Below the pieces are notes generated by a model. That model saw only the letters and a list, made by a program, of their open reading frames with translations, searched no databases and was not told where the DNA came from. 64,000 nt of DNA from Bacteroidota bacterium (GTDB lineage: Bacteria > Bacteroidota > Bacteroidia > B-17B0 > Aurantibacillaceae). The stretch's first letter is position 1. Every line of letters starts with the position of its first letter. Where the stretch lies: assembly GCA_018267825.1 (NCBI GenBank), contig JAFDXR010000013.1, positions 78,275 through 142,274 on the forward strand. Direction: 5' to 3'. Made by a program: the position numbers and the translations under genes. Positions 9,006 through 15,654 of the stretch are shown here, one piece after another.

Positions 9006-10334
9006 ATGACCAACATATTAATCATAGGTGCCGGCCGCTCTACATCCAGTTTAATTACATACATGCTTGAGCATGCTGCCGCAAATCAATGGAAAATAAC
9101 CGTATCGGATGCTGATCTGCAGCTGGCCCAGCAAAAAACCAAAGATTTTGGTCATGTGGCACGTGCTGTGGCATTTGATGTCACCAATGCATCGCTTCGT
9201 GAACAACTTATCGGTGAATCTGATTTTGTGATTTCAATGCTTCCGGCATTTATGCATGGTGATGTGGCCCGCGATTGTGTGAGGCTTGGCAAGCACCTGG
9301 CAACTGCCAGTTATGTGAGTGCTGACATGAGAGCGCTTGATGCGGAAGCTCAATCCAAAAATATTTTGCTTTTAAATGAATGTGGCCTGGATCCGGGTAT
9401 TGATCATGCATCGGCCATGAAAGTGATTCATGAAATACAGGAGAAAGGTGGTATTATAACCGGCTTCAAATCGTACTGCGGCGGCCTGGTGGCACCTGAG
9501 AGCAATGATAACCCATGGGGTTACAAGTTCAGCTGGAATCCGCGCAACGTGGTTCTGGCCGGGCAAAGCACGGCTCAGTATATTGAAAACGGTCAGCTGA
9601 AATTTATTCCTTATAATCGTCTGTTCACACAAACCGATACCATTGAGGTAGAAGGCTACGGTCGTTTTGATGCCTATGCCAACCGCGACAGTATCAGTTA
9701 CCGCGAGCCTTACGGCCTGCAGTCTGTTTCATCCATCTTACGTGGCACATTGCGTATGCCAGGTTATTGCAAAGCCTGGAATGTATTTGTTAAACTTGGT
9801 TTACTGGATGAATCCTACAAAATTCATGATGCCCATAAATTAAGTTATACGGATCTTATTGCCTCTTACCTCCCGAATGGCAATGGCCCGGTAAAAGACA
9901 GGCTGATTGCATTCATGGGTCCGGAAATAGATGCCGATGTTATTGAAAAACTGGAATACCTGGAGCTTTTCAGTCATAAGCCCATCAAAAGAACCGAAGG
10001 CTCCCCTGCCCTGCTGATACAGGATTTACTGGAAGAGAAATGGTTACTGAAACCAGGCGACAAGGATATGATTGTAATGCAGCACCAGTTTGAATATACC
10101 CTGCAGGGTGCTGTTAAAAAATTAAATTCTTCGCTGGTCGTTATCGGTGATGATGAAATTCATACAGCCATGGCAAAAACGGTGGGGCTGCCTCTCGCCA
10201 TTACCATTAAGAATTTTCTGACCGGTAAATTTAAACTCTATGGTGTGCAAATCCCTACTGTAAAAGCCATTTACGAACCTCTTCTGGAAGAGCTTGAAAC
10301 GATGGGAATCTGCTTTATAGAAAAGGAATTATAA
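9006..10334 (+). CDS. saccharopine dehydrogenase-like NAD(P)-dependent oxidoreductase
   Basis: This 442-residue cytoplasmic enzyme has an N-terminal Rossmann domain with the dinucleotide motif GAGRSTSS (residues 8-15) and the DVTN strand end that follows. The C-terminal saccharopine-dehydrogenase domain has the conserved NECGLDPGIDHASAM segment (about 125-139) and the SYCGGLVAPESNDNPWGYKFSW segment that forms the substrate pocket. Family members (LYS9-like) oxidise saccharopine to glutamate and aminoadipic semialdehyde; in bacteria related proteins also act in lysine or polyamine metabolism, so the exact substrate is open. It converges on the histidine kinase gene, overlapping it by 6 nt. Confidence 0.88.
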   Translation: MTNILIIGAGRSTSSLITYMLEHAAANQWKITVSDADLQLAQQKTKDFGHVARAVAFDVTNASLREQLIGESDFVISMLPAFMHGDVARDCVRLGKHLATASYVSADMRALDAEAQSKNILLLNECGLDPGIDHASAMKVIHEIQEKGGIITGFKSYCGGLVAPESNDNPWGYKFSWNPRNVVLAGQSTAQYIENGQLKFIPYNRLFTQTDTIEVEGYGRFDAYANRDSISYREPYGLQSVSSILRGTLRMPGYCKAWNVFVKLGLLDESYKIHDAHKLSYTDLIASYLPNGNGPVKDRLIAFMGPEIDADVIEKLEYLELFSHKPIKRTEGSPALLIQDLLEEKWLLKPGDKDMIVMQHQFEYTLQGAVKKLNSSLVVIGDDEIHTAMAKTVGLPLAITIKNFLTGKFKLYGVQIPTVKAIYEPLLEELETMGICFIEKEL

Positions 10335-11603
10335 GGGTTGGGAAGACAGAAATTCGATATGAATGCTGTGTAACCCGTTCTCATAATTGTAATTGATCTT
10401 GTATCCGTAATAGTCGCAGATTTTTTTCACGATCGATAAGCCGAGGCCCAACGATTCGTTTGATTTTTCGCTATAGAACCGATTGAAGAAATCGCTCACG
10501 GATGCTTTCGGGGCATGTCCTGTATTGGCAATAGTCAGTATGTTTCCCTGGAGTGTAACATGTATGGTTCCGTTGTCAACATTATGCTTAATGGCATTTT
10601 TAATCAGGTTATCAATCAATACTTCAGCCAGGATACTATCCATTTTCACCGTCATATCGCTCATGTAGCTTTCGGCCAGTTTCAGATTTTTGTTCTGCAG
10701 AAAATCAACAAAGAACGAGATTCTTTCCTGAACCAGTTTCGCTACATTGATGTCGTATGTTTTGTTGTATTGGTGGTTCTCGAGTTTACTTAATAAGCTG
10801 AGGCCCTGGTTCAGGGTCACGAGTTTCTGTACTTTTTTCATGGCCACACTCAGCAACTGGGCCTGGTTTTCGGTCAGGTTTTCGTCCTGGAGGCATTGTT
10901 CAATTTTAGTACTGATAACAGCCAAAGGTGTTTGCACTTCATGGGCCATGTTTTCGGTAAACTCTTTCATGGCCTTGTAATCGTCGATCAGGTTTTGAGA
11001 CATCTTGGTTACTTTGGCACTCAGGATACTAAATTCATGCGTAGTGGTTGGAATCGGCTCGATGCGTTTCAGATCGTGAATCTCGAATTTCTCGATATAC
11101 TTAATGAGCTTATCAACTGGTGAAAACAAACGGTAATACACAAAAACGTTAACCAGTACGAGCATCACCAGCATGCCAAGGCCTGTAATGAGCATAATGG
11201 GTAAAATGCTGTCAGCCTGATCCTGGATTTCGTCAATAGTATACTGGATACTGACTCTGTAAAATTTGCCATGATGATTTACATCAAACACTACCATTTC
11301 GGTTGTAAAAGACTCGTCTTCCCACTCCTCTTCTTCCTGAACCGTTTGAAACACCGGTGCCGTATGCTCTATTTTCGCAATAGGTTGTATGCGTATAATA
11401 TCACCGATGTTGTGTTTGAACTCCATGATATTCTCCTGTTTCTGCGACATGCGGATAAAATCCACGCAGTCGGCCAGGAGGTGTTCACGGGTTTCGTTTT
11501 GTATTTTACTGCGAATAAAACTATAGATGGAGTACTCTCCCAGAAAGAGAATAATTACCGAAACAATGGTATTAATGATGATATTTTTGGATACCAGTTT
11601 CAT
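10329..11603 (-). CDS. sensor histidine kinase
   Basis: From the ATG at 11603 the protein has 424 residues; a TTG at 11615 would add four. It has two membrane segments (about 8-28 and 134-157) flanking a periplasmic sensor of about 105 residues with an acidic patch (EEEEWEDE), and then a HAMP-like linker. The phospho-acceptor is His221 in MAHEVQTPL. The C-terminal ATPase domain has an N box (DNLIKNAIKHN), a degenerate G1 box (TIANTGHAP, where DxGxG is usual) and a G2 box (SLGLGLSIVKKI). It starts 8 nt after the regulator's stop codon. Cognate partner and cluster target are inferred from position; the signal is unknown. Confidence 0.93.
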   Translation of the reverse strand: MKLVSKNIIINTIVSVIILFLGEYSIYSFIRSKIQNETREHLLADCVDFIRMSQKQENIMEFKHNIGDIIRIQPIAKIEHTAPVFQTVQEEEEWEDESFTTEMVVFDVNHHGKFYRVSIQYTIDEIQDQADSILPIMLITGLGMLVMLVLVNVFVYYRLFSPVDKLIKYIEKFEIHDLKRIEPIPTTTHEFSILSAKVTKMSQNLIDDYKAMKEFTENMAHEVQTPLAVISTKIEQCLQDENLTENQAQLLSVAMKKVQKLVTLNQGLSLLSKLENHQYNKTYDINVAKLVQERISFFVDFLQNKNLKLAESYMSDMTVKMDSILAEVLIDNLIKNAIKHNVDNGTIHVTLQGNILTIANTGHAPKASVSDFFNRFYSEKSNESLGLGLSIVKKICDYYGYKINYNYENGLHSIHIEFLSSQPL

Positions 11604-11611
11604 GCTTTTCC

Positions 11612-12292
11612 TCAAGCCTGGAATTTATAACCTACGCCGTATACCGAGCGGATATAATCGTTGCACCCGGCCTGCAGCAGCTTTTTGCGAAGGTTTTTAA
11701 TGTGTGTGTAAATAATTTCATTGGATACATCCATGTCGGAGTGACTGCTCCATACACTGAAAGAAATAGCATCTTTCGTAATCACTTTACCGGCGTTGGA
11801 AATGAAGTACATCAGGAGTTCATATTCTTTTTGTGTGAGGGGCAGTGGCTTGTCGTTGACGAGCACAATCTTCTTCACTGTATCTGCTTTGATTTCGAAA
11901 AATTCGATATCGTTATTGCCTTTGAATTTATTACGACGTACCAATGCATTAAGCCTGGCATTGAGTTCCGACATATGAAATGGTTTCACCAGGTAATCGT
12001 CAGCACCGGCATTGAGCGCCTGTACGCGCATATCGAGTTCATCTATGGCGGAAAGAATGATAATACCGGATTCAAATTTTTTACGCTTGATGTGATTGAT
12101 CAGATCCGTTCCATGTCCGTCGGGCAGGCGGAGATCAAGAAGTATGATATCATACTGTTTTTCTGATAATGCTTCCAGTGCATCTGCATAGGTCATAGCA
12201 ATTCTGCATTGATACTGGAAGTGTTCTAGATAGGAAGACACCTCTTCTGCAAGGTTTCTTTCGTCTTCAACAATGAGGATATTAATACGCAT
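11612..12292 (-). CDS. OmpR/PhoB-family response regulator
   Basis: The ATG at 12292 gives 226 residues starting MRINILIVEDE, the correct start of a receiver domain; an upstream TTG-type extension is not needed. The receiver has the acidic pair at 10-11, phospho-acceptor Asp53 in LLDLRLPDG and the late LVKPF lysine. The C-terminal winged-helix DNA-binding domain (about 130-226) has LTQKEYELLMYF and the recognition region YTHIKNLRKKL, and ends YGVGYKF. Such regulators bind tandem direct repeats; three candidate 11-bp repeats lie at 12374-12406, just upstream. It is first gene of the pair with the kinase. Confidence 0.95.
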   Translation of the reverse strand: MRINILIVEDERNLAEEVSSYLEHFQYQCRIAMTYADALEALSEKQYDIILLDLRLPDGHGTDLINHIKRKKFESGIIILSAIDELDMRVQALNAGADDYLVKPFHMSELNARLNALVRRNKFKGNNDIEFFEIKADTVKKIVLVNDKPLPLTQKEYELLMYFISNAGKVITKDAISFSVWSSHSDMDVSNEIIYTHIKNLRKKLLQAGCNDYIRSVYGVGYKFQA

Positions 12293-12373
12293 AACGGTTC
12301 TTTTGGTGAGGTAAATGTATAACAATTACAGAAGATTCAAAACCCCGATAAATACTAATAAAAATCAGGATTT

Positions 12374-12406
12374 CTTCAGTATTACTTCAGTGTTCCTTCA
12401 GGCTTT
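12374..12406 (+). promoter_or_regulatory. three helically phased CTTCAG repeats, candidate response-regulator site
   Basis: CTTCAG occurs at 12374, 12385 and 12396, exactly 11 bp apart, with similar 5-bp spacers (TATTA, TGTTC, GCTTT). OmpR-family regulators such as PmrA bind half-sites with this period. The array lies between the regulator gene and the 12444 cluster, immediately upstream of a weak -7 box (TTATTTTG, 12412-12419), the place expected for an activator. Binding is inferred. Confidence 0.6.
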
Positions 12407-12443
12407 TTTTGTTATTTTGGTACATCTTTAAACCCTCTGATTT

Positions 12444-13250
12444 ATGAAAAAAAATTTACTCATTCTTTCGACTGCTATCCTTGCCGGAGGCATTATTCTT
12501 TTTTCGACACATTCAAATGGTCGTGCTAACTTAGCCGGTGCACCAGGTTATACAACAGGTTCGCCGGGTGATGGTGCCAATTGTACAGATTGCCACGCTG
12601 GTACGGCTGTTTCAGGAGGTACCATTACATCGAACATTCCAGTAACAGGTTATGTGCCTGGCTCAACGTATTCTTTTTCTGCTTCTATCAGCGGAAGTTC
12701 TACCAACAACTACGGTTTCGAAGTGGGTTGTGAAGATTTACTTGGTAATGTTCTCGGAACATTATCGGCTCCCGGTACAGGTGCTAAACTTGTGAGTGGA
12801 AGTAAATTTGTAACACATTCTTCTGCACCAACCGGAACCTCCAAAACATGGACGTTCAGCTGGACAGCTCCGACAAGCAGCACAATCACATCGGTGACAT
12901 TCTATGGCGCATTTAATGTTGGTAACAATGATGGTACACAAAACAACGACGTTACCAAAAACACAAGCGTAACCTACTCTATCAGCACTGAAGGCATTCA
13001 GGAGCAGCAAGCTAAAACAGCTGTTAGTATTTTTCCTAATCCTGTTGTTAACTCGTTACACCTCTCTTCTTCTGAAGAACTGGCAAAAGCCTATATTTAT
13101 ACTTCAGATGGTAAATTGGTAAAAGAAATCAGTGCCGGTGAATTATCATCGAAAGTTATTGATGTTGTGTCGTTACCGAATGGCCACTATTTCCTGATTG
13201 TGAAAGGTGCTCATTCTGCAGCTTCTGCAACAGCATTTATTAAAGAATAA
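12444..13250 (+). CDS. secreted choice-of-anchor V domain protein with haem motif and T9SS sorting domain
   Basis: This 268-residue protein has a signal peptide (about 1-25). A mature N-terminal GAPGYTTGSPGDGANCTDCH segment carries a canonical CTDCH haem-attachment motif at about residues 48-52. A Reeler-like beta domain follows (about 55-180), of the kind called choice-of-anchor V in Bacteroidota, and then a C-terminal T9SS type A domain (IFPNPVVNSLHLSS to the end). It should be displayed on the cell surface, possibly as a haem protein. It is first in the 12444-15654 cluster, facing the two-component system, and is followed by a long hairpin that may separate its expression from the downstream genes. 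Confidence 0.85.
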   Translation: MKKNLLILSTAILAGGIILFSTHSNGRANLAGAPGYTTGSPGDGANCTDCHAGTAVSGGTITSNIPVTGYVPGSTYSFSASISGSSTNNYGFEVGCEDLLGNVLGTLSAPGTGAKLVSGSKFVTHSSAPTGTSKTWTFSWTAPTSSTITSVTFYGAFNVGNNDGTQNNDVTKNTSVTYSISTEGIQEQQAKTAVSIFPNPVVNSLHLSSSEELAKAYIYTSDGKLVKEISAGELSSKVIDVVSLPNGHYFLIVKGAHSAASATAFIKE

Positions 13251-13356: not shown

Positions 13357-13749
13357 ATGTTTAATTCGAAACCTTACCTGCGATCCCGTCTCGGCATTTT
13401 CTTTGGAGCGGTTCTTTTTACAGGTATTTTCACAAACTGCCAAAATAAGCCCGTTATTCCTGATACACCGGCTATTTCATTTACAACAAACATTCAGCCC
13501 ATTATTGCCTCTTCCTGTAGCGCTGATGGTTGTCACGGTACAATTAATGCCACCTCTCCTTCTCTGCTCACCTACGACGAAGTGATGAGCATTGTAACCG
13601 CCGGTGATGCCCATAAGAGCAAGTTTTACACAGTGAGTGTAAAAAACACGGGCGATGACAGAATGCCAAAGCCTCCGGTTGCTCCCCTTACAGATGAACA
13701 GTTGAAAATGATTTACCTGTGGATTATGCAGGGCGCAAAAAACAATTAA
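13357..13749 (+). CDS. small exported cytochrome c-like protein with CX4CH motif
   Basis: This 130-residue protein has an N-terminal signal (about 1-28); the following Cys may be lipidated, though the preceding FTN is a poor lipobox. A cytochrome-like region reads NIQPIIASSCSADGCHG: the haem motif has four residues between the cysteines (CX4CH) instead of two. A later RMPKPPVAPLTDEQLKMIYLWI segment supplies a candidate Met axial ligand and the C-terminal helix of class I cytochromes. Stretched motifs of this type occur in Bacteroidota proteins; haem loading here is not proven. It is 13 nt upstream of a sister gene. Confidence 0.75.
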   Translation: MFNSKPYLRSRLGIFFGAVLFTGIFTNCQNKPVIPDTPAISFTTNIQPIIASSCSADGCHGTINATSPSLLTYDEVMSIVTAGDAHKSKFYTVSVKNTGDDRMPKPPVAPLTDEQLKMIYLWIMQGAKNN

Positions 13750-13762
13750 TTATTCAGAATCT

Positions 13763-14155
13763 ATGAAGTCTATATTATTTATTTCGGGGGTTTGTGTGTT
13801 ACTGCTCAGCAGTTGCTACAAAGACAAGTACGAAGAATTATACCCTGCTATCGGCTTATCGACAGCATCCTGCGATACAACTGCAGTTCCTTCCTTCAGC
13901 ACTGACATTATGCCTATTTTGAACACCAGCTGTGGTACTACCGATAACTCCTGCCATTCGGCATCTGCTACCAGTGGTACTAACCTCACCACCTGGGCCG
14001 GTGTAAAAATTTCGGCTCATAACGGTTCCCTGGTTGGTGATATTACATTTGATCCAAGCTACAATCCAATGCCAAAAGGAGCCTCTACCAAAATCGACAA
14101 TTGCAGCATCAATAAAATCATTAAATGGGTTAACTCCGGTTACCCGAATAACTAA
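13763..14155 (+). CDS. small lipoprotein, cytochrome c-like with CX6CH motif
   Basis: This 130-residue lipoprotein has a clear lipobox (LLLSSC, Cys at about residue 18). It resembles the upstream gene in layout: a DIMPILNTSC...SCH segment where the two cysteines are separated by six residues (CX6CH), a later PMPKGAS segment that could give the Met ligand, and a C-terminal helix ending KWVNSGY. Two extra cysteines (about 37 and 114) could form a disulfide. The protein should sit in the outer-membrane inner leaflet or on the surface. It is separated by 8 nt from the DUF5777 gene, so these are one transcript. Confidence 0.72.
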   Translation: MKSILFISGVCVLLLSSCYKDKYEELYPAIGLSTASCDTTAVPSFSTDIMPILNTSCGTTDNSCHSASATSGTNLTTWAGVKISAHNGSLVGDITFDPSYNPMPKGASTKIDNCSINKIIKWVNSGYPNN

Positions 14156-14163
14156 TTGCTATT

Positions 14164-15072
14164 ATGAAGAAGTTCCCTGTTTTTTCAAGCTCTTCCAAAC
14201 TTATTGCCAGTTTCCTTTTTGTTATTTCCTGCAATAACCTGGTTTCTCAGGATGACATGTTATCAATGGCTGATAACGGTAAAAAACAAAAAGACTATGT
14301 GTATGCCACATTCAAATCGACGCGTAACATCAACTTCCATACCTGCGAAGTTGTTGGCCGCAGAAGTCTTGATTTTCGCATCTCTCACCGTTTCGGATCT
14401 ATGAACAGCGGCACTTACAATGCCTGGGGCCTAGATCAGACAGCTAACGTGCGCCTGGGGCTTGAATACAGTCCCGACGGACGTTTCATGGTTGGGATCG
14501 GCCGTAGCTCTTACGAAAAAATGACGGATGGTTTTGTGAAATTCAAAATCCTTCGTCAGACATCAGATAACCGGCAACCTGTAACCATTACCTGGTTTTC
14601 ATCCATGTATTGCACCTGGCTGAAAGACGATCAGAAGGCAACAACGGGCATTGACCGTTATGCACACTTCGAGCATCGCCTGTCGTATGTACACCAGCTG
14701 ATCATCGGCCGCAAATTCGGTTCCCGTTTTTCATTACAGGTAGCGCCGGCTTATGTTCACTACAACCTGGTGCAGAAACTCACCGACAAAAATGACCTGT
14801 TCCTGATTACCGGACTGGCCCGTTTCAAAGTAACACAACGTATCGCGCTGACATTTGAATACGCTTATCGCCTAAACAATTACAGCCGCGATAAATTCTA
14901 TGACAGTATGGGGGCCGGTATTGATATAGAAACCGGTGGACACGTATTCCAGGTACATGTTGTAAACTCATTTGGTATGTGCGAAAACCAGTATTTTATG
15001 TATACCAACAGCGCCTGGAACAATGTCGGTATTCGTTTAGGATTTAATATTTCAAGGGTATTTGCTTTATAA
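14164..15072 (+). CDS. DUF5777 family outer-membrane beta-barrel protein
   Basis: This 302-residue protein has an N-terminal export signal (about 1-28), then a periplasmic stretch and repeated amphipathic strands (RSLDFRISHRFGSM, NVRLGLEYSPDGRFMVGIG, ALTFEYAYRLNN). The C-terminal strand ends in hydrophobic/aromatic residues (GFNISRVFAL), as expected of a barrel. YATFKSTRNINFHTCEVVGRRSLDFRI-type N-terminal wording is characteristic of DUF5777, a Bacteroidota family of unknown function often found beside cytochrome-like and YceI genes. Here it lies between the two small haem-motif proteins and yceI, which supports a role in the same envelope pathway. Confidence 0.82.
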   Translation: MKKFPVFSSSSKLIASFLFVISCNNLVSQDDMLSMADNGKKQKDYVYATFKSTRNINFHTCEVVGRRSLDFRISHRFGSMNSGTYNAWGLDQTANVRLGLEYSPDGRFMVGIGRSSYEKMTDGFVKFKILRQTSDNRQPVTITWFSSMYCTWLKDDQKATTGIDRYAHFEHRLSYVHQLIIGRKFGSRFSLQVAPAYVHYNLVQKLTDKNDLFLITGLARFKVTQRIALTFEYAYRLNNYSRDKFYDSMGAGIDIETGGHVFQVHVVNSFGMCENQYFMYTNSAWNNVGIRLGFNISRVFAL

Positions 15073-15093: not shown

Positions 15094-15654
15094 ATGAAAA
15101 AATTCACACTCACAGGTATTATCATTTTATCTTTCGTTTCGGTATTAAATGCTCAGATTTTCAAAGGGAAATCAGATGCTACCAATATATCTTTCTTCTC
15201 CAAAAACACGATGGAAGATATTTCGGCTTTGAACAAAAATGCAACCATTATGCTGAATACAGCTACTAATGATATCCAGGCTCGTATTACCATGACCTAT
15301 TTCAAATTCAAGAGTGCTCTTATGGAAGAACATTTCAATGAGAACTATGTAGAATCTGAAAAGTATCCTTCAAGTGTATTTATGGGTAAAGTGAACGAAA
15401 AAATTGACTGGACCAAAGATGGCGAGCACGCTGTTACGGTTACAGGTAAATTAACCCTTCACGGTGTGACGAAAGATGTAACCATGACTGGTACCATCAC
15501 TAAAAAAGGAAATGAAATTATCATTGAGTGTAAAAAATTACCGATCCGCCTGGCCGACTACAACATTAAAGTGCCATCACTGTATGTGCAAACCATTGCC
15601 GAAGTAATTGATGTAACGGTAAGCTCTGTGATGGAGCCTTTCGTAAAAAAATAA
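15094..15654 (+). CDS. YceI family periplasmic protein
   Basis: This 186-residue protein has a signal peptide ending near LNAQ (residue 20) and a YceI lipocalin-like barrel. Readable parts are SDATNISFFSKNTMEDISA, EKYPSSVFMGKV and LTLHGVTKDVTMTGT, the last being the family's most conserved strand pair. YceI proteins bind isoprenoid chains or other amphiphiles, so it may carry a quinone or lipid for the cytochrome cluster it closes. It is 21 nt after the DUF5777 gene and ends at a strong terminator. A paralogue lies at 60200. Confidence 0.88.
   Translation: MKKFTLTGIIILSFVSVLNAQIFKGKSDATNISFFSKNTMEDISALNKNATIMLNTATNDIQARITMTYFKFKSALMEEHFNENYVESEKYPSSVFMGKVNEKIDWTKDGEHAVTVTGKLTLHGVTKDVTMTGTITKKGNEIIIECKKLPIRLADYNIKVPSLYVQTIAEVIDVTVSSVMEPFVKK

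Follow-up and report, generated by a model that had tools for sequence, protein, structure and literature searches.

A phased tandem array of half-sites as the predicted operator of an OmpR-family regulator beside a cytochrome-like/YceI gene cluster in Bacteroidota

Why would a short gap between divergent genes carry the same hexamer three times at a constant step of 11 bp? The question is raised by a 151-bp gap (positions 12293-12443) in the 64,000-nucleotide stretch of Bacteroidota DNA that we analyzed as a whole (hereafter the window). On its minus-strand side lie the genes of a response regulator and a sensor histidine kinase, that is, a two-component system (TCS); on its plus-strand side begins a divergent cluster of five genes for a choice-of-anchor V protein with a CxxCH motif (anchV), two cytochrome-like proteins (cyt1 and cyt2), a DUF5777 protein and a YceI-family protein. 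The first-pass annotation of this DNA had named the same flanking genes, and we agree with it. We propose, with a probability of about 0.88 and on the strength of sequence comparisons, that the repeats serve the adjacent OmpR-family regulator as its operator, from which it would activate the anchV-cyt1-cyt2-DUF5777-YceI cluster together with unlinked genes of a predicted regulon.

A phased array and its promoter

The hexamer CTTCAG occurs on the plus strand at 12374-12379, 12385-12390 and 12396-12401, with the exact 11-bp step reported in the first-pass annotation. The earlier count of three holds for CTTCAG itself but falls short of the whole array: a fourth, weaker unit (AATCAG at 12363, half-site form ATCAGGAT) lies one period upstream of the first CTTCAG, so that there are four half-sites. 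Alignment of the promoters of relatives gave the unit consensus HTCAGnnT, whose T at position 8 never varies where the unit is the first of the promoter-proximal pair (20/20). All four window units fit this consensus, and the array has the layout [HTCAGnnT + 3 nt] x4; its 11-bp period lies within the 10-11 bp of the direct repeats in OmpR/PhoB-type operators. When the window was shuffled 100 times with its dinucleotides preserved, the triple CTTCAG pattern never appeared, even with 3 mismatches tolerated. Because CTTCAG alone is frequent in the window (40 occurrences against 23 expected), it is the phasing, not the hexamer itself, that carries the signal.

The -7 box of the Bacteroidota primary sigma factor has the consensus TAnnTTTG. 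Downstream of the array, TTATTTTG matches it at 5 of 6 consensus positions, and the orthologous promoters match at 5-6 of 6 with unchanged spacing. The distance of about 10 bp that had been given between the repeats and a weak -7 box proves to be exactly 10 nt, as the final TTCAG extends to 12401 and TTATTTTG begins at 12412. Transcription is predicted to start at ~12424-12428, ~20 nt 5' of the ATG at 12444.

Co-occurrence of the site with the two-component system

In several relatives, orthologs of the regulator and kinase (the regulator at 48-67% identity) accompany the same cluster, either adjacent to it or close by. We scored the promoters 5' of the first cluster gene for two TTCAG half-sites 11 bp apart, followed 10 nt on by TAnnTTTG (composite score, maximum 16). 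Far from being absent or unphased in orthologous loci, the phased pair with its 10-nt distance (TTCAG-N6-TTCAG-N10-TAnnTTTG) was kept in 12/12 TCS-linked cluster promoters, compared with 0/22 homologous promoters from TCS-less genomes (Fisher exact p = 1.8e-9, a value that overstates independence because the genomes are related). Composite scores were 14-16 in all 12 of the former and 8-11 in the latter, and shuffles reached 14 once in 1020. One genome, G089, seemed to be an exception, as its promoter scored 16 and no kinase ortholog was found in it. The end of its contig encodes the N-terminus of the divergent regulator, as elsewhere, running off the contig, which resolves the case. Within a single genus (g6), the same contrast is 7/7 versus 0/5. 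Many TCS-less genomes keep paralogous kinases (~30% identity), yet the site is absent from their cluster promoters, which indicates that the site follows this particular TCS. None of the other aligned promoters showed the outer pair of half-sites (window units 3-4).

The same site is found away from the cluster in genome-wide tests, which were pattern scans. The pattern TCAGN6TTCAGN10TAnnTTTG (15 specified bases) occurs exactly at 12 sites in 32 whole genomes, all of them in TCS genomes and none in the 19 TCS-less ones, and all 12 precede a cyt1/anchV, DUF2271 or Rieske gene. As a control, the reversed pattern with one mismatch allowed gave 4 matches over all 32 genomes together. The best other site of the genome studied here, exact at the 15 bases, is on the same contig at a distance of ~43 kb (G000:C4:47679-47712; also L165:3739-5649), 5' of a DUF2271-like gene whose product carries a sorting tail of the type IX secretion system (T9SS). 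Among DUF2271 orthologs, which were found by protein search, the operator scores 15 in 8/8 TCS genomes and 11 in both TCS-less genomes; in two relatives (G005 and G071) the DUF2271 gene lies downstream of the cluster's YceI gene. The DUF2271-type protein of the own genome has TGAT, which fits the flavinylation motif [S/T]GA[S/T] (PMC8238504), and its gene has a convergent ApbE-like neighbor, recognized by eye from the sequence. Since the Pfam match to DUF2271 is sub-threshold and was obtained only in an ortholog, this assignment rests on homology, motif and neighbor. Rieske and YceI genes carry the operator in some relatives.

Weaker sites were also observed. In the own genome, one lies 5' of an operon for a His-rich protein and a TonB receptor (G000:C2:40672-40705) and another 5' of a gene for a small protein adjoining a CusA-like pump (G000:C4:249484-249517). 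Both the receptor and the small protein have homologs encoded beside DUF2271 in G071 (78% and 40% identity, respectively), where the homologous genes have no operator of their own. The TonB receptor operon and the small protein are possible members of the regulon. In a relative that has the TCS, a one-mismatch operator lies ~1 kb 5' of a DUF5777 gene of the other clade (G006:C164:7125-7157).

The spacing proved to be fixed when it was left free to vary. In a grid of half-site periods of 8-14 and spacers of 5-15, with none assumed, 24/24 operator promoters fell at period 11 and spacer 10, with <=2 at any other combination, and the 22 TCS-less promoters gave 0 at (11,10). A core-promoter distance of 10 nt in 24/24 is fixed in the manner of OmpR/PhoB-type operators. 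We extended this to other members of the regulator family, at 77 loci in Pedobacter, Mucilaginibacter, Chitinophaga, Dyadobacter, Cytophaga, and others; with either T or A accepted in the half-site, (11,10) scores 33 and all other spacings 0-2. Of these sites, 16 are upstream of the regulator, 5 are divergent from it and 12 follow the kinase. For the 80 family loci, a count of upstream pairs that accepted only TTCAG had shown 11 forward and 7 reverse pairs of 79 at 11 bp, an enrichment that is only modest because TACAG is what many paralogs use. Such a TACAG-type pair, TACAGGTTTATTACAG-N10-TAGTATTG, is found in a paralogous system of the own genome beside a PepSY_like gene (C13:178576-178609) with the 11/10 spacing kept, and, as it is TACAG and not TTCAG, it suggests that the second base of the half-site varies among paralogous regulators. 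In cultured genera the operator sits just 5' of the regulator's own gene at several loci (L058, L064, L069 and L073 in Pedobacter; L083, L084, L125 and L132 in Chitinophaga; L117 in Terrimonas), a position that suggests autoregulation of these family members. We give even odds to a broader proposal, namely that a large and apparently undescribed Bacteroidota family of OmpR-type regulators with PorY-subfamily kinases shares the operator [TWCAGnnT, period 11]-N10-TAnnTTTG, and that a T9SS-delivered, extracellular system for flavin/heme electron transfer (DUF2271-ApbE, cytochrome-like, YceI, and Rieske proteins) is under the control of the member studied here. If true, whole regulons could become readable from sequence across the phylum.

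Proposed mechanism, rival explanations and components of the locus

We propose that the kinase phosphorylates the regulator, dimers of which would then bind head-to-tail to paired, 11-bp-spaced TTCAGnnT half-sites. The promoter-proximal pair would take the place of the upstream (-33/-35) element, exactly 10 nt 5' of the TAnnTTTG -7 box. Because the pair replaces this element at that distance, the bound dimer could touch sigma and thereby bring RNA polymerase to an otherwise weak promoter, in a class II activation like that by PhoB and PmrA. In the window, the two in-phase pairs would leave room for two dimers. The regulon would comprise the cluster and the T9SS-tailed DUF2271 protein in the own genome and in relatives, and the Rieske and YceI genes in some relatives. 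Directly visible in the sequences are the array, its phasing and conservation, its link to the TCS and the fact that, genome-wide, it accompanies these genes. We infer that the neighboring regulator is the binder because the site and the TCS co-occur, and because the cluster lacks the site in genomes whose kinases of this kind are all paralogs; activation instead of repression and dependence on phosphorylation are likewise predicted. An extracytoplasmic redox or cofactor cue as the signal is only a guess, based on the kind of genes that carry the operator.

Several points weigh against this proposal. The TCS-bearing genomes are all related (four genera of one family), and the 34 promoters behind 12/12 versus 0/22 are not that many independent events. 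It was the motif scan itself that supplied four of the 24 operator promoters, those of Rieske and YceI genes, although it did not supply the 12 cluster and 8 DUF2271 promoters, and the window's own -7 box, TTATTTTG, has one mismatch to TAnnTTTG. In addition, the paralogous regulators at C13 and C33 could also bind such sites, an operator-type site can repress as well as activate, and both binding by the regulator and activation of the cluster are predictions.

These points lead to alternatives that differ in who would read the site and to what effect. It might be the operator of another OmpR-family regulator of the same genome (for example one of the PepSY_like-linked systems at C13:176613 and C33:158597), with the neighboring regulator controlling something else. 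Paralogous family loci share the same architecture and the paralogs are 42-47% identical to the adjacent regulator, but where a genome bears paralogs without this TCS, its cluster carries no site, which disfavors a paralog as the owner, and the paralog's own site at C13:178576 is of the TACAG type; we regard this alternative as very improbable. Also very improbable, in our view, is a repressor operator, at which the regulator would cover the upstream promoter element and block RNA polymerase until loss of the signal opened the promoter. The overlap of the site with the -33/-35 position would suit such a role, whereas the fixed 10-nt distance (24/24 operator promoters; 33 versus <=2 among the family loci) is to be expected if the regulator touches RNA polymerase and speaks against a repressor, whose sites tolerate shifts, and PmrA and PhoB activate from such positions (PMC4660055). 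Finally, the abundance of CTTCAG in the window might point to a tandem array made by chance or slippage, with no regulatory role. Against this stand the shuffles and the fact that both the phasing and the distance to the promoter are kept in orthologs and at unlinked genes; together they rule out a chance or simple-repeat origin unless the whole correlation is an artefact, and we find it hardly credible at all. Activation by the adjacent regulator thus remains the explanation that we favor.

The components of the locus are listed in Table 1. The regulator consists of a receiver (PF00072, E=4e-28) and a winged helix (PF00486, E=2e-19), as OmpR/PhoB-type regulators do. In an AlphaFold model of the kinase (mean predicted local distance difference test score 81, predicted template modeling score 0.48), a small four-stranded domain lies between two long N-terminal helices; the structure search identified no sensor homolog, and the best PDB matches listed were mostly kinase cores. 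Heme binding by cyt1 and cyt2 (window 13357-14155) is uncertain because the standard CxxCH motif is found only in the choice-of-anchor V protein; in cyt2 we noted a CX6CH by eye. At its 3' end the kinase gene overlaps, tail-to-tail, with a gene of the saccharopine-dehydrogenase type (window 9006-10334).

Table 1. Coordinates of the array, its promoter and the flanking genes in the window.
Feature	Position	Strand	Basis or remark
Cognate sensor histidine kinase, NCBIfam PorY subfamily	10329..11615	-	NF052314, 363 bits vs cut-off 350
OmpR/PhoB-family response regulator (ATG at 12292), which would read the repeats	11612..12292	-	Response_reg + Trans_reg_C
Weak -7-like box TACATTTA, regulator strand	12312..12319	-	sequence only
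Half-site 4, most distal, degenerate ATCAGGAT	12364..12371	+	HTCAGnnT match one period upstream
Half-site 3 TTCAGTAT (CTTCAG from 12374)	12375..12382	+	sequence
Half-site 2 TTCAGTGT (CTTCAG from 12385), first of the promoter-proximal pair	12386..12393	+	position kept in 12/12 TCS-linked promoters
Half-site 1 TTCAGGCT (CTTCAG from 12396), promoter-proximal	12397..12404	+	conserved; TTCAG end 10 nt from -7 box
Bacteroidota-type -7 box TTATTTTG (consensus TAnnTTTG)	12412..12419	+	5/6 consensus positions
Choice-of-anchor V protein (anchV), CxxCH + T9SS sorting tail, first cluster gene	12444..13250	+	NF041895, PF18962; CTDCH at residue 47
Cytochrome-like secreted protein (cyt1), CX4CH	13357..13749	+	ortholog is first cluster gene in relatives
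Cytochrome-like secreted protein (cyt2), no CxxCH here	13763..14155	+	motif check
DUF5777 outer-membrane beta-barrel protein	14164..15072	+	PF19089, E=4e-86
YceI-family protein, last cluster gene	15094..15654	+	PF04264, E=4e-15

Comparison with known systems

In the open-access literature, outside which most subscription journals lie, we found no description of this operator, of its -7 geometry in Bacteroidota or of the regulon. Systems of this kind are already known, and it is the operator sequence, the -7 geometry and the regulon that appear to be new with respect to the literature searched. Bacteroidota promoters are unlike those of Escherichia coli and few activator sites have been mapped there, and a sequence-readable site with fixed distances offers testable targets for a widespread TCS family. 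Moreover, one predicted regulon joins the DUF5777/YceI/cytochrome-like cluster with predicted-flavinylated, T9SS-tailed proteins of the DUF2271 type, so that a role of the cluster in extracellular electron transfer becomes directly testable.

On the side of the genes, the operator-bearing DUF2271-type gene with its TGAT and its convergent ApbE-like neighbor resembles the ApbE/DUF2271 flavinylation systems of PMC8238504. The available part of that paper has a PepSY-like membrane partner in such extracytosolic systems and describes no TCS operator. On the side of the regulator, the only motif from DNA affinity purification sequencing that we found for a Bacteroidota OmpR-type regulator is that of Riemerella PhoP, TTTAACA (PMC9603813), which differs from the CTTCAG operator.

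The likeness to PorY-PorX lies in the kinase, which passes the PorY cut-off (363 vs 350), and in the T9SS tail encoded by the first target gene. PorX combines a receiver with a PglZ-type effector and has no helix-turn-helix, whereas the partner here is a DNA-binding regulator of the OmpR type (receiver + Trans_reg_C). Two other kinases of the own genome, encoded at C13 and C33 and each having an OmpR-type regulator as its partner, outscore the kinase on the PorY model (443 and 441); because they do, the model covers a broad subfamily and a match to it does not establish PorXY identity. The different type of the partner regulator and the scores of the two paralogous kinases led us to reject membership in PorXY.

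The PmrA regulon concerns lipid A modification, whereas the regulon predicted here consists of secreted redox-type proteins, and the promoter here is of the Bacteroidota -7 type. The PmrA-box analogy drawn in the first-pass annotation holds for the geometry, as the half-sites run head-to-tail with 5 bp between them in both (PMC3973317), and PmrA is also the nearest NCBIfam model of the regulator, with PmrA/BasR entries among its nearest solved structures in the PDB. In PmrA promoters, the -35 element falls inside the half-1 site (PMC4660055). The analogy does not extend to identity: the PmrA box reads CTTAAG/NTTAAT (PMC3973317), and in the half-site here (CTTCAG) a C replaces the A. The half-site sequence, together with a score of 165.5 bits against an equivalog cut-off of 330, rules out that the regulator is PmrA.

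The Pho box consists of tandem 11-bp repeats. Its half-site sequence, phylum and target genes differ from those of the system described here, and the regulator scores 140 bits against the NCBIfam Bacteroidota PhoB model (cut-off 270). PhoB-type tandem 11-bp repeats replace the -35 element and contact sigma4 (PMC4660055), and it is likewise at the upstream promoter element that the array in this gap places its tandem 11-bp repeats.
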